Shown one piece after another: positions 1,188 through 38,193 of a stretch of DNA of 64,000 nucleotides (the first letter of the stretch is position 1; each line of letters opens with the position of its first letter). The notes beneath the pieces were generated by a model. That model ran no database searches. It was not told the origin of the DNA and saw nothing but the letters and a program-made list of their open reading frames with translations. The stretch comes from Kitasatospora phosalacinea (GTDB taxonomy: Bacteria; Actinomycetota; Actinomycetes; Streptomycetales; Streptomycetaceae), in NCBI RefSeq assembly GCF_000716545.1, contig NZ_JNWZ01000003.1, forward strand, positions 1 to 64,000, given 5' to 3'. A program made the translations under genes and the position numbers.

Positions 1188-2519
1188 ATGCAACTTCGCC
1201 TCTCTTCCTCGCGTTTGATGTCCCGTCAGTTCAGGACGGGCCGGTCACTGCTCGGCGCCGCGCTGCTGCTGTTCCCGGCGGCGGCGGCCTGTTCCCCGGG
1301 CGGCGGCGGCGCGTCGGCCGACCGGCACCCGCCGGGGACGGTGCTCCGGGTGCCGGAGGACTTCCCGACCGTGCAGCGGGCGGTGGACGTCGCGGACCCG
1401 GGCGACCTGGTGCTGGTCGGGCCGGGGACGTACCGGGAGAGCGTGCGGGTGACCAGGCCGCGGGTGGTGCTGCGCGGGACGGACCGGAACGCGGTGGTGT
1501 TCGACGGCGGGCTGAAGCTGGTCAACGGCGTCACGGTGACCGGTGCGGGCGGCGTGGTGGAGAACCTGACCGTGCGCGGCTACCTGGCCAACGGCGTGCT
1601 GTTCACCGGCGTCACCGACGAGAAGCTGCAGCGGCACGGTGCGGGCGGTTCGGCGTACGACCCGCTGGACACCACCCGGTTCCCGGCGGTGGAGGGCTTC
1701 CGGGCGACGCGGGTGACGGCGTACGGGAACGCGCTGTACGGGATCTACGCGTTCGACGCGCGCGGCGGGGTGATCGAGGAGTCGTACGCGTCGGGGCAGG
1801 CCGATTCGGGGATCTACGTGGGGCAGTGCAGGCCGTGCGACACCCTGGTGCGGGGCAACACGGTGGAGCGCAACGCGGTGGGGATCGAGATCACCAACGC
1901 GTCGGAGAACCTGACGGTGGTGGGCAACCGGGTGGTGGGCAACCGGGTCGGGGTGACGGTCAACTCCAACGACCTGGAGTCGCTGGCGCCGCAGCACGCG
2001 GCGGTGATCGCGGGCAACGTGGTGGCGGACAACAACGCGGCGGACTCGCCCGAGCAGGCGGACGGCGGGTTCGGGATCGGGATCGGGATCGGCGGCGGCA
2101 CGGGCAACCGGGTGGAGCGGAACCTGGTGCGCGGCAACCGGGCGGCGGGCGTGGTGGTGACCGATCCGCCGGGGCACCCGGCGTCGGGCAACCGGGTGAC
2201 CGGCAACAGCGTCACCGGCAACGGGGTGGACCTGGTGAGTTCGGCGGCCGATCCGGGCAACTGCTTCACCGGCAACGGGCCGTCCACCCAGAGCCCGCCG
2301 GAGCTGGAGCGGCTGGCGGCCTGCGACGCGGCGGGCGCGGGCCCCGTCCCGGCCGGGCGGGCGGCGGGGGTGCAGGCCCCGCCGGGGACGGCGTTCAACG
2401 CGGTGCCGGTGCCGCCCGGGCAGCCCTCGCTGCCCGATCCGCACGCCCCCGCGGTGCCCGCCGTCGGCCTGCCGGGGGCGGTCGACCCGGGTTCCTACCC
2501 GCTGCCGTCGGGCTCCTGA
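1188..2519 (+). CDS. Right-handed beta-helix lipoprotein, NosD/PbH1-like
   Basis: The predicted protein has about 443 residues. The first 35 form a lipoprotein-type signal (LLGAALLLFPAAAAC), and a second ATG at 1218 would give a more usual 25-residue signal, so the start is uncertain; neither has a good ribosome-binding site. The mature part begins with a NosD/pectin-lyase-like opening (FPTVQRAVDVADPGDLVLVGPGTY). Many PbH1 coils follow, with recurring N-R-V, G-N and N-A-V-G-I steps (NGVLFTG, NALYGIYAFDA, NAVGIEITNASENLTVVGN). The C-terminal 100 residues are Pro/Gly/Ala-rich and low in complexity. The family binds polysaccharides or, in NosD, helps deliver copper. It stands head to head with the DyP peroxidase, so the pair may share a surface redox role; this is inference. 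Confidence 0.8.
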   Translation: MQLRLSSSRLMSRQFRTGRSLLGAALLLFPAAAACSPGGGGASADRHPPGTVLRVPEDFPTVQRAVDVADPGDLVLVGPGTYRESVRVTRPRVVLRGTDRNAVVFDGGLKLVNGVTVTGAGGVVENLTVRGYLANGVLFTGVTDEKLQRHGAGGSAYDPLDTTRFPAVEGFRATRVTAYGNALYGIYAFDARGGVIEESYASGQADSGIYVGQCRPCDTLVRGNTVERNAVGIEITNASENLTVVGNRVVGNRVGVTVNSNDLESLAPQHAAVIAGNVVADNNAADSPEQADGGFGIGIGIGGGTGNRVERNLVRGNRAAGVVVTDPPGHPASGNRVTGNSVTGNGVDLVSSAADPGNCFTGNGPSTQSPPELERLAACDAAGAGPVPAGRAAGVQAPPGTAFNAVPVPPGQPSLPDPHAPAVPAVGLPGAVDPGSYPLPSGS

Positions 2520-34052: not shown

Positions 34053-35435
<1,383 letters not shown>

Positions 35436-35569: not shown

Positions 35570-37198
35570 CTACGGCCGGCGGGTCTCGGAGGGCTTCTTC
35601 GGGCTCTGCCGGTCCCGCTCCCACGGCCAGGTGGCGTCCTGCCCGGCCTCCAGCAGGGGGATCAGGCGGAACGCGGCGTCGGTCAGGCCGCCGAAGGTGT
35701 GGCGGTTGCCGGTGCCGGAGGGGGCGTGGCCGAGGCGGTAGCCGGCCAGGTTCCAGGTGTAGCAGGGGACGTGGGCCGGGACGGACTCCAGCGGGTCGCG
35801 GACGAAGGCGCCGTACGCCTGCTCGTCGGTGACGACCACCACCCGGTCGTGGCCCCGGTAGTGGGCTCGGACGGCCTCGGCGGTGTCGGTGCCGCCGAGG
35901 TTGCCGAAGCGTTCGACCGCCTTGAGCAGGGAGTCGCCGGGCCGGAGGGCGATCGGCCGGCTGCCGGTGCCGAATTCGACCAGGTCGGCGTCGGCGGACC
36001 GCAGGGCGAGCGCGGTGCCGAAGACGGCCGCGGCGTCGGCCCGGTTGAGCTGGGTCTGCGCGCTCGGCGCGTCGAACATCGAGCCGGAGCGGTCGACCAG
36101 GACGAGGGTGCGCCCGGGCAGTTCCGGCACGTTCTCCAGCGAGTGCCGCAGCGCCTGCTCCAGGGCGTGGCCCCAGCGCAGCGAGGGCACGTTGCGGTGC
36201 GCGGCGAGGTACCGGAACGGGAACTGGCGCGAGCGCTTGACCTCGCCCCGGTCGGCGATCCGGCGGGCGACGGCCGCGGCCACCTCGTCCGGGACCTCGG
36301 CCCGGTCGAAGTTGCGCAGGTTGCGCACCAGCGCCATCGGGCCCATGGACGGGATGACGGCCTCCCAGACGGCGGCGTCCAGCGGCCCCTGGAGCCAGCC
36401 GGCCAGCGCCTCCCAGGTCATCCCGGCGGCGGCCAGGCGCTCGGCCCCGCCGGGGCCGGTGACCAGGGCGCGGCGCTCGGCGACGGGCACCGCCATCAGC
36501 TCGTGGTGCGCGGTCAGCACGGCGTTCCCGGCGGGCGGGAGCGCCTCGTCCGGGCGGTGGCGCCGGTCGAGCGCGTGGCGGAACAGCTCGCCCTGCCAGG
36601 GCTTGTCGCGGTGCGGGGCCGGGTGGGTCAGCTCCAGGACGTCACCGAAGCGGTAGCCCTTGCTCGCGGTGTCGTACTTGAGCAGGGCGCGCGCGTCGTA
36701 CAGCCGGGCGACGGCGTCGGCGACGCCGCGCTTGAGCGGCTTGGGCAGGTTACGGCCGTAGCGGGACGTCCAGTAGGCGAGCAGTTCGCCGGGCTCGTCG
36801 GGGCGCTGCAGCACCGCGTCGACGACCTGGCGGGAGTGGCCGGGCAGGCCGGCGTCGAGCCGGGCGCGGGTGAACTCGGCGGCGCCGACCAGCGAGGCGG
36901 TGCGCATCGCGGCGCCGTAGCGCAGCCAGCGCAGCAGGTCGAGGGTCCACTCGGGGGCGCTGACGGCGAGGTGGCGGACGAGCGCGGTGTAGCGGTCGTC
37001 GCGGTCGCCGCCGCGTTCGTAGAAGGTGTCCTGGCCGACCAGGTTGGCGACGGCGAGCAGGAAGAGTTCGGACTTCTCGTCGCGCAGGTGGCCCGTTCCG
37101 CCGTTGTGGTTGCGGACGGTCCGCCCGGTGGTGGCCACGGGCGAGGTCGGGCCGGTGGCGGCTTGGGCGGCGGTGCGGCGGATGTTGAAGCGGGCCAT
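35570..37198 (-). CDS. rsr: Ro60/Rsr ortholog, TROVE-domain RNA-binding protein
   Basis: The product has 542 residues, the normal size for Ro60. Residues about 1-350 form the TROVE HEAT-repeat ring (NHNGGTGHLRDEKSELFLLAVANLVGQDTFYERG, WTLDLLRWLRYGAAMRTASLV, GMTWEALAGWLQGPLDAAVWEAVIPSMGPMALVRNLRNF). Residues about 365-542 form a vWA domain with the MIDAS motif LVDRSGSM and GGTDTAEA. Ro60 proteins bind the ends of misfolded RNAs in the ring and Y RNAs on its rim. In bacteria they work with exoribonucleases in stress and rRNA maturation. GGAGG precedes ATG 37198. Directly upstream on the same strand lie the Y-RNA-like units described below, the expected partners. Confidence 0.93.
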   Translation of the reverse strand: MARFNIRRTAAQAATGPTSPVATTGRTVRNHNGGTGHLRDEKSELFLLAVANLVGQDTFYERGGDRDDRYTALVRHLAVSAPEWTLDLLRWLRYGAAMRTASLVGAAEFTRARLDAGLPGHSRQVVDAVLQRPDEPGELLAYWTSRYGRNLPKPLKRGVADAVARLYDARALLKYDTASKGYRFGDVLELTHPAPHRDKPWQGELFRHALDRRHRPDEALPPAGNAVLTAHHELMAVPVAERRALVTGPGGAERLAAAGMTWEALAGWLQGPLDAAVWEAVIPSMGPMALVRNLRNFDRAEVPDEVAAAVARRIADRGEVKRSRQFPFRYLAAHRNVPSLRWGHALEQALRHSLENVPELPGRTLVLVDRSGSMFDAPSAQTQLNRADAAAVFGTALALRSADADLVEFGTGSRPIALRPGDSLLKAVERFGNLGGTDTAEAVRAHYRGHDRVVVVTDEQAYGAFVRDPLESVPAHVPCYTWNLAGYRLGHAPSGTGNRHTFGGLTDAAFRLIPLLEAGQDATWPWERDRQSPKKPSETRRP

Positions 37199-37246
37199 CG
37201 GAAAGTCCTCCTGCGTCCTGCGGGGAGGCGTGCCGGACCGGGGCGT

Positions 37247-37280
37247 CCGAGATCGCGGGCCGGTGCGGCCCGCATCTCGG
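37247..37280 (-). terminator. Hairpin after the Y RNA array, before rsr
   Basis: Arms CCGAGATGCGGGCC and GGCCCGCGATCTCGG pair with one bulged G around a GCACC loop. It lies 49 bases before the rsr start. It could end the Y RNA transcript, act as a partial attenuator, or mark a processing site that separates the RNAs from the rsr message. Confidence 0.5.
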
Positions 37281-37380
37281 CGGAGGGAACCGGGCCACCG
37301 GCCGCGCGCACGCGCGCGGCCGTCCGGGACTCGAACCCGGTAATGCCCGCACCAAGAAGTAACCCCCGCCTGCGCACCGG
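37279..37380 (-). ncRNA. Y RNA-like unit 3 with T arm and long capped stem, no D arm
   Basis: The common block lies at 37378-37356. The closing stem GGCGGGGGUUAC pairs with GUUCCCUCCGCC (37290-37279), with mismatches near the same UU positions as in unit 1. Inside are a stem CGGGC/GCCCG, a T arm CCGGG-UUCGAGU-CCCGG (37340-37324) and a 10-base-pair hairpin GGCCGCGCGC/GCGCGCGGCC in the acceptor position (37321-37300). No D arm can be drawn. It looks like a shortened version of unit 1. Confidence 0.6.
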
Positions 37381-37415
37381 ACGCCCCGGCACGGTGGCCT
37401 CCCGAGATCTGAAGC

Positions 37416-37460
37416 GGTGCCGGTGGTTTCTTTGGAGGAAGTAACCGGCGCCTGCGCACC
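37416..37460 (-). ncRNA. Y RNA-like unit 2, minimal stem-loop
   Basis: It repeats the common block GGTGCGCAGGC-N3-GGTTACTTC (37460-37438). The stem GG-C-GCCGGU pairs with ACCGGC-A-CC (37424-37416) with one mismatch, at almost the same place as in unit 1. The loop is short and purely single-stranded (UUCCUCCAAAGAA). No T or D arm is present. It may be a separate small RNA or a second Ro60-binding hairpin of one long transcript. Confidence 0.55.
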
Positions 37461-37505
37461 GGGAGGTGGCAGTCTGTGAAGTTGGGTGTCCGGAGATCGA
37501 GGATC

Positions 37506-37620
37506 GGCGGGGGTGACGAAGTTGCTCTACCGACTGAGCTACGCCGGCCGGGGCCGGCGGCGGGGATCGAACCCGCGACACACTCACAGAGGAAGTAACC
37601 CCTGCCTGCGCACCTGGACG
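37506..37620 (-). ncRNA. Y RNA-like unit 1 with permuted tRNA-mimic module
   Basis: The closing stem pairs GGCAGGGGUUAC (37606-37595) with GUCACCCCCGCC (37517-37506), 10 of 12 pairs. Inside, in this order, are a T arm GCGGG-UUCGAUC-CCCGC (37576-37560), an acceptor-like stem CGCCGGC/GCCGGCG capped by CCCG (37559-37542) and a D arm GCUC-AGUCGGUA-GAGC (37539-37524). A tRNA has the opposite order, so this is a circular permutation whose ends leave through the anticodon position. Bacterial Y RNAs (YrlA) are known to carry a tRNA-like module of this kind. Location beside rsr supports the call. Ends are approximate. Confidence 0.72.
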
Positions 37621-37626
37621 AGGATC

Positions 37627-37632
37627 ACTCTA
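37627..37632 (-). promoter_or_regulatory. -10 box for the Y RNA/rsr transcript
   Basis: TAGAGT on the minus strand lies 7-8 bases before the first common block of unit 1 would be transcribed, giving a start near 37619. No good -35 is present 17 bases upstream (TGTGGG), so confidence is limited. It would drive the whole array and possibly rsr. Confidence 0.4.
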
Positions 37633-37714
37633 GCCAGCGCGCACCCCGCCCCACACCTGCTTTTCCTCCCGCCCGGAGGCGCCCCGTGACCACTCCCCCG
37701 CCCCGGCGGGGCGT

Positions 37715-38101
37715 TCAGGCCCCGCGGCCGAGGGTCGCCAGGTAGGCCCGCCAGCCGCCGTGTTCGGTGATCTCGCGGTGGACGCCGCGTTCCAGCTGGC
37801 CACGGGCCAGCACCATCGACAGCGAGGGGGCGCCGTCGGCCAACTCGATGACGCCCAGCTCCAGTTCGAGCGGTTCGCCGGGCAGGACGGCGTCCCGGAG
37901 GTGTTCCAGCGGGAGGTCGTACAGTTCGCCCTCGACGGCGGTGTCGACGCTCGGGTCGGCGAGCAGGGCGGGGCACTCGTCGCGGATGGAGAAGAAGCGG
38001 TAGCCGGGGGCGGTGCGGGCCGGGCCGACCAGGTGGCCGTGGACCTTGGCGTGGAACGGGCCGCCGGTCATCGCCTGGCCGTTGAAGAAGACGCGTGCCA
38101 T
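37715..38101 (-). CDS. Gamma-glutamylcyclotransferase-like protein, allophanate-hydrolase C-terminal type
   Basis: The product has 128 residues. The start MARVFFNGQAMTGGPFHAKVHGHLVG is the family opening for the small domain that in AtzF-type allophanate hydrolases follows the amidase part. YRFFSIRDECPALL and GELYDLPLEHLRDAVLPGEPLELELGVIEL continue the cyclotransferase-like fold. Stand-alone copies are common next to purine and urea catabolism genes; their reaction is not settled. It follows malate synthase by 92 bases on the same strand. GGAGCACC precedes the ATG. Confidence 0.85.
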   Translation of the reverse strand: MARVFFNGQAMTGGPFHAKVHGHLVGPARTAPGYRFFSIRDECPALLADPSVDTAVEGELYDLPLEHLRDAVLPGEPLELELGVIELADGAPSLSMVLARGQLERGVHREITEHGGWRAYLATLGRGA

Positions 38102-38193
38102 GGTGCTCCTTTCGTCGGGCCGCCCCGTACCGCGACCGGTGTGAGGGTGCCGGCGGTACGGGGCGGGGTACGCGGGGGCGGTGCGGCGGGCGC

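Follow-up and report, generated by a model that had tools for sequence, protein, structure and literature searches.

The region directly upstream of rsr, the Ro60 gene of this actinomycete, is best explained as three Y RNA modules arranged in tandem in the leader of rsr, a reading to which we assign a probability of about 0.8 on the strength of sequence comparisons. The array lies in the 64,000 nucleotides of DNA analysed here (hereafter the window). The original prediction of a multi-unit Y RNA locus beside Ro60 is well supported by conservation, by covariation and by co-occurrence with rsr; the array is a common actinomycete layout and not an oddity of one strain. These comparisons indicate that the three modules are under structural selection and tied to rsr. 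With a shared putative binding site and different payloads in tractable bacteria, a division of labour among Y RNAs becomes testable module by module, and the reasons for having several Y RNAs per cell, like the setting of the Ro60 level, are questions that reach to the human autoantigen.

Three modules upstream of the Ro60 gene

The rsr gene (35570-37198, minus strand) encodes a 542-aa protein related to Ro60 and carrying a TROVE domain (Pfam PF05731, E 7.7e-15), which is similar to the PDB TROVE chains 9l5y and 9kop, and a search of its own genome found one copy. The closest named relative of this Rsr is a Kitasatospora phosalacinea protein, with 90% identity in the best segment. The neighbouring genes encode an amidohydrolase (34095-35435, plus strand) and a small protein with an allophanate-hydrolase C-terminal domain (37718-38119, minus strand). 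Relatives of Rsr were seen on 28 plasmid records, including those of Streptomyces, Pseudomonas, Rhodococcus, Bifidobacterium, Thermus, Deinococcus and haloarchaea.

The repeated block on which the original prediction was built, GGTGCGCAGGC-N3-GGTTACTTC, is indeed present in three exact copies on the minus strand (37614-37592, 37460-37438 and 37378-37356), while 100 dinucleotide-preserving shuffles, with up to three mismatches allowed, gave a mean of 0.01 matches and no shuffle with three. All three copies also form the 5′ side of a closing stem, as had been proposed. In the first unit (U1), GTCCAG (37619-37614) pairs with CCGGAC (37493-37488) with one A.C mismatch; in U2, CCTCCCG (37466-37460) pairs with CGGGAGG (37404-37398); and in U3, GCGTCCG (37384-37378) pairs with CGGACGC (37249-37243), this last stem being extendable to 13 bp and then reaching 37237-37390.

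The modules share one plan, in which the basal stem is followed by an internal loop (5′ strand GGUGCGCAGG, 3′ strand UGAUCU), an inner stem and a payload. The internal loop and its stems are the predicted Rsr-binding site, and since each module carries such a putative site, several Rsr molecules could load onto one transcript or its pieces. The payloads differ. U1 (37487-37620, minus strand; 125.6 bits with our model R1) is of the tRNA-mimic type and carries a T-arm-like hairpin (37560-37576), a closed hairpin in the place of the acceptor stem (37542-37559) and a D-arm-like hairpin (37524-37539), all on the minus strand, all recognised in the alignment with the Rfam YrlA model and all covarying in relatives. 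U2 (37398-37466, minus strand; 76.2 bits with model R2, and an alignment of 55 units) is a minimal hairpin whose payload is a short loop only, so that it would offer the predicted Rsr-binding site with nothing but a plain hairpin. U3 (37243-37384, minus strand; 49.1 bits with R1) combines a T-arm with a GC-rich hairpin and has no D-arm in the window. The claim of three different unit types is well supported, except that the T-arm-only form of U3 is a local variant, most U3 units of relatives having both T- and D-arm-like motifs. In searches of the window's own genome with R1 and R2, the only convincing units were the three linked to rsr. Single-sequence folding gave a z of -2.99 for U3 and values of -0.63 for U1 and -1.52 for U2, which are uninformative.

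Conservation, covariation and linkage to rsr

Modules were sought in the 900 bases upstream of rsr, for the window together with 80 named relatives (Kitasatospora, Streptomyces, Streptacidiphilus and others), by a scan that required a basal stem, the motif GTG[CA]G and some of the 3′ context and left the inner stem and the payload helices free. The scan missed the U1 of the window and that of locus L082, both with an A.C mismatch, and the counts were corrected by adding the former, leaving out the latter and dropping false units of L045, L059 and L064. On these counts, 77 of the 81 rsr loci have two to four modules (three in 49, two in 26 and four in two), with one module in two loci and none in another two, one of which (L050) shows a variant module by eye. 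The reverse strand gave single matches in 2 of 82 sequences.

When the rsr upstream regions of relatives were aligned, the common block and the stems were found to be conserved and the helices to covary, as the original prediction would have it. The U2 basal stem reads CCUCCCG/CGGGAGG in 53 of 55 aligned units, and the U1 and U3 stems are unlike it and unlike one another. When the 55 U1/U3-type units in the alignment are compared between loci, 54 are closest to a unit of their own class, so the array predates the sampled species; to judge from these alignments, the modules are orthologous by position across loci. At the class level, at least one R1 match was present directly upstream of each of the 29 rsr loci examined, and two to four modules were found at 8 of 9 such loci from three other families. 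A search of 296 genomes of the phylum, run under stricter filters than this direct look upstream of rsr, gave full-length R1 matches above 80 bits in six genomes besides that of the window, all of the same family and all with rsr. The comparisons indicate that arrays are present also in other actinomycete families and in phages.

In the U1/U3-type units, 95.8% of 1225 cells over 23 pairs are paired and 17 pairs show two-sided changes (133 two-sided cells vs. 33.7 in shuffles); sliding the partners drops pairing to 39-52%. In U2, 93.6% of cells are paired and 37 are two-sided vs. 11.5 in shuffles. Neither the count of U2 pairs that change on both sides (49 of 500 shuffles were as high) nor that of further pair types (475 of 500) stands out, because the U2 basal stem hardly varies. 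Over 211 units, position 2 of the basal stem is C-G in 145, A-U in 60 and G-C in 5, and position 6 is C-G in 96, G-C in 66 and U-A in 44. RNAalifold did not recover the basal stem from the mixed U1/U3 alignment, since MAFFT offsets the 3′ arms of U1 and U3 by one column, and the stem was then counted by script.

R1 matches were counted as strong at E 1e-7 or lower; among 70 genomes in the genus, such a match was found in 54 of the 59 with rsr vs. 1 of the 11 without (Fisher p 7.7e-8). Among the exceptions, G041 and G059 have rsr fragments only; G006, G052 and G066 have an rsr that is 68-71% identical, with the match starting at residue 13-22; and G048 has three modules (the third at 21 bits) and no rsr match, in an assembly with 6% contamination.

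Several loci depart from the genomic arrangement described above. Modules away from rsr were seen at L180, L181, L182, L183 and L184, where tblastn found no Rsr within stretches of 6.5-8 kb; L181 is from a genome where no rsr was found. In IMG/VR pieces with Rsr (L186-L231), some of which, e.g. L186, may be bacterial rather than phage, at least two modules lie upstream of rsr in 41 of 46 loci, namely two in 17, three in 16, four in six, five in one and six in one. L201, L209 and L219 are located in tRNA clusters, and L219, probably a phage, has its three modules in an unannotated stretch between tRNA-Asn and a Ro-like gene. In the phage-like contigs L209, L214 and L218, the modules are downstream of rsr, not upstream.

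Comparison with known Y RNAs

In the Rfam covariance-model search recommended by the original prediction, U1 matches YrlA (RF02553) over its full length, but its 39.9 bits (E 5e-7) are below the cut-off of 69. The relatives reach 33 to 52 bits, and no Rfam family reached its cut-off anywhere in the window. The YrlA-type tRNA-like order of T-arm, closed hairpin and D-arm is present in U1 and absent from U2, and the U3 of the window lacks the D-arm. More general traits of bacterial Y RNAs were found, namely the coding position beside the Ro60/Rsr gene and a basal stem and conserved internal loop that lead into a variable part. U1 resembles the YrlA of Salmonella and Mycobacterium smegmatis in its closing stem, in its arm order and in its place beside rsr; what sets the window apart from YrlA is an array of three dissimilar modules ahead of rsr, including one that has no tRNA-like part.

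According to a review, the stem of YrlA binds Rsr and its tRNA-like domain binds PNPase (PMC8394870). That rsr can be accompanied by more than one Y RNA is already known from Salmonella, whose rsr-yrlBA-rtcBA operon unites these genes (PMC7790460). There, however, the operon name puts the Y RNAs after rsr and an RNA repair operon is attached (PMC7790460), whereas here two to four modules precede rsr. The literature searched contained no paper on Y RNA arrays in Streptomyces relatives; as the primary Y RNA papers lie outside it, the arrays may have been noticed earlier.

In another family of the class, locus L126 has three modules, recognised by eye, before a canonical Ro60 gene (E 4.3e-81 with the Rsr of PDB 2nvo; Pfam TROVE and vWA_Ro60), to which tblastn with the window Rsr gave no match at E 1e-3. 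One of the L126 modules matches YrlA at 40.2 bits. An L126 module (1220-1640, minus strand) scores 37.7 bits with the nematode stem-bulge RNA family RF01656, whose cut-off is 38, and has the motif GGUUAUC after the inner stem in common with it, so that the resemblance between the RNAs of bacterial and animal Ro60 may go beyond the lower stem. The window modules gave no Rfam match to metazoan Y RNA or stem-bulge families. The window block GGUUACUUC is placed like GGUUAUC and may be the counterpart of that motif.

Transcription and a possible switch on rsr

A -10-like box, TAGAGT (37627-37632, minus strand), would put the transcription start at about position 37619, where the U1 stem begins. Boxes of the form TANNNT end about 7 nt ahead of the first base of the stem before first units in 65 of 79 loci, and before later units in 9 of 131. 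The box is missing at 14 loci, 13 of which begin with U2 in the scan (L082 only because its U1 was missed). This placement, mainly ahead of the first unit, makes the single promoter of the original prediction probable. A strict sigma-70 consensus scan of 37150-37800 found no promoter, and a T-run terminator scan of the same segment found none before rsr. Of the terminator-like hairpin and the rsr gene that had been proposed to follow, the TROVE/Ro60 gene does follow, but the hairpin (37280-37247) is inside U3, where it shares bases with the 3′ arm, and an intrinsic terminator at this position is unsupported by the scan. Given the box mainly before the first unit and the lack of a T-run terminator before rsr, a transcript comprising both array and rsr is likely; transcription of the array probably starts with U1 and may continue into rsr. 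In L002 and L048, the interior of U1 is lost and a short hairpin remains there after the promoter-like box.

We tentatively propose, at somewhat less than even odds, that the middle module U2 may be the sensor of an autoregulatory rsr switch in Streptomycetaceae. Four minus-strand segments would take part: the U2 5′ arm CCTCCCG (37460-37466), the U2 3′ arm GGGAGG (37398-37403), a CCTCCC in the rsr leader (37223-37228) and the rsr Shine-Dalgarno GGAGG (37207-37211). The leader CCUCCC, located after U3 and shortly before the Shine-Dalgarno, is complementary to the U2 3′ arm and able to cover the Shine-Dalgarno too, so that segment 2 can pair with either segment 1 or segment 3. If Rsr held U2 closed, pairing of 1 with 2 and of 3 with 4 would hide the Shine-Dalgarno; without the protein, the pairing of 2 with 3, favoured by folding models, would free it. 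Through a Y RNA module, Ro60 would then gauge how much of it is free and stop its own translation. In trp-type attenuators, four segments form either the pairs 1:2 and 3:4 or the pair 2:3, and ribosomal-protein leaders are autoregulated. The rsr leader is like these in its four-segment layout and in having a protein that could bind its own leader; unlike in those systems, a Y RNA module would serve as the sensor, with exposure of the Shine-Dalgarno as the output. The literature searched, which does not extend to the primary Y RNA papers, contained neither a Y RNA leader switch nor a Y RNA module sensing its own protein in cis.

Both pairings are conserved and, having six bases in common, are bound to compete wherever they lie on a single molecule: the U2 stem is 100% paired in 55 units, and the 6-bp core of the U2-leader helix is possible in 91 of 94 loci, with the best register picked for each locus. 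The complementarity continues into the U2-U3 linker, all 12 pairs being possible in 30 of the 91 loci. Linker position 2 is G-C in 38 loci, A-U in 18 and G-U in 13 (unpaired in 21 of 91), and position 4 is A-U in 24 and G-C in 18 (unpaired in 43 of 91). Covariation across relatives supports this attenuator-like layout: exchanging linkers and leaders between loci lowered the score from 17.8 to 13.9 (95 loci) and, with 52 distinct linkers, from 16.9 to 12.8, the original score being reached in none of 5000 permutations, although the permutation tests ignore relatedness between species. The duplex is better than with shuffled leaders at p<0.05 in 76 of 94 loci; that of the window is not (-18.6 vs. 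-16.6, p 0.198).

In folding models, the Shine-Dalgarno is 0.95 paired with U2 forced closed vs. 0.60 with the U2-leader helix forced, a difference that arises partly by construction, as the forced helix takes its partner. When this helix is forced, Shine-Dalgarno pairing drops by over 0.2 at 50 of the 86 loci; a comparable rise was seen in none. Over these loci the U2-leader state is favoured by a mean of 4.9 kcal/mol (sd 5.2); at nine of them the closed-U2 state is the stabler, and one is a tie. For the window, the Shine-Dalgarno is paired at 0.96 with closed U2 vs. 0.70 with the U2-leader helix, and the U2-leader state is the stabler by 3.5 kcal/mol. In protein-free models of the whole leader, the U2 basal stem has a probability of about 0 for the window and at almost all 86 loci; bound Rsr could reverse this preference and would then repress rsr. 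Two further results, like the window duplex and the nine loci with a stabler closed U2, tell against the switch. Pairing of the Shine-Dalgarno is only modestly higher than in shuffled leaders (0.948 vs. 0.897, higher in 85 of 101). The Shine-Dalgarno helix alone covaries weakly, with a z of -4.1 over 101 loci and 233 of 5000 permutations as good (22 distinct segments). If true, the switch would explain why the U2 basal stem is frozen while those of U1 and U3 drift, and a Y RNA module would, in cis, be sensing its own protein.

The weak covariation of this last helix also suits a different reading of the same pairings, in which a single precursor is cleaved into the three modules as individual Y RNAs and the U2-leader pairing is just the base of a long U3 stem that fixes a cleavage site, with no regulation of rsr. 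The U2-leader helix does extend the U3 basal stem outwards, and the number of modules varies from one to four between loci, as it would for independent units. However, the leader complement of the U2 arm stays where U3 has been lost or replaced (L009, L079 and L168), and the basal stem varies far less in U2 than in U1 or U3, a constraint that processing by itself would not call for. We regard processing without regulation as possible, with the balance leaning against it.

A leader that acts purely in cis, as a protein-binding attenuator of rsr and with no trans-acting Y RNA, would agree with the position of the array before rsr in the loci examined and with a Shine-Dalgarno that the leader can cover. 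It is nevertheless unlikely, as the mimicry of T- and D-arms is conserved and has no obvious role in cis, and as a few modules are found away from rsr or, in three phage-like contigs, downstream of it. The same T- and D-arm-like sequences could instead suggest that the blocks are functionless remnants of tRNA genes or repeats, and many weak R1 matches elsewhere do resemble neighbouring tRNA genes; such partial matches (model positions ~26-111) are probably those genes, as checked for L128 only. A tRNA gene or pseudogene was rejected for the window, where ARAGORN finds none. The order of the arms is T and then D, and the conservation and strong covariation, with two-sided changes in 17 of 23 pairs, refute functionless remnants, which we consider extremely improbable. 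A tandem array of Y RNA modules in the rsr leader is the reading that we prefer over these.

The arms of a module can stay where its interior has been lost, as for U3 in L009, L079 and L168 and for U2 in L071 and L153. In these last two, the inner hairpin of U2 is gone, and the arms and the strands of the internal loop remain.
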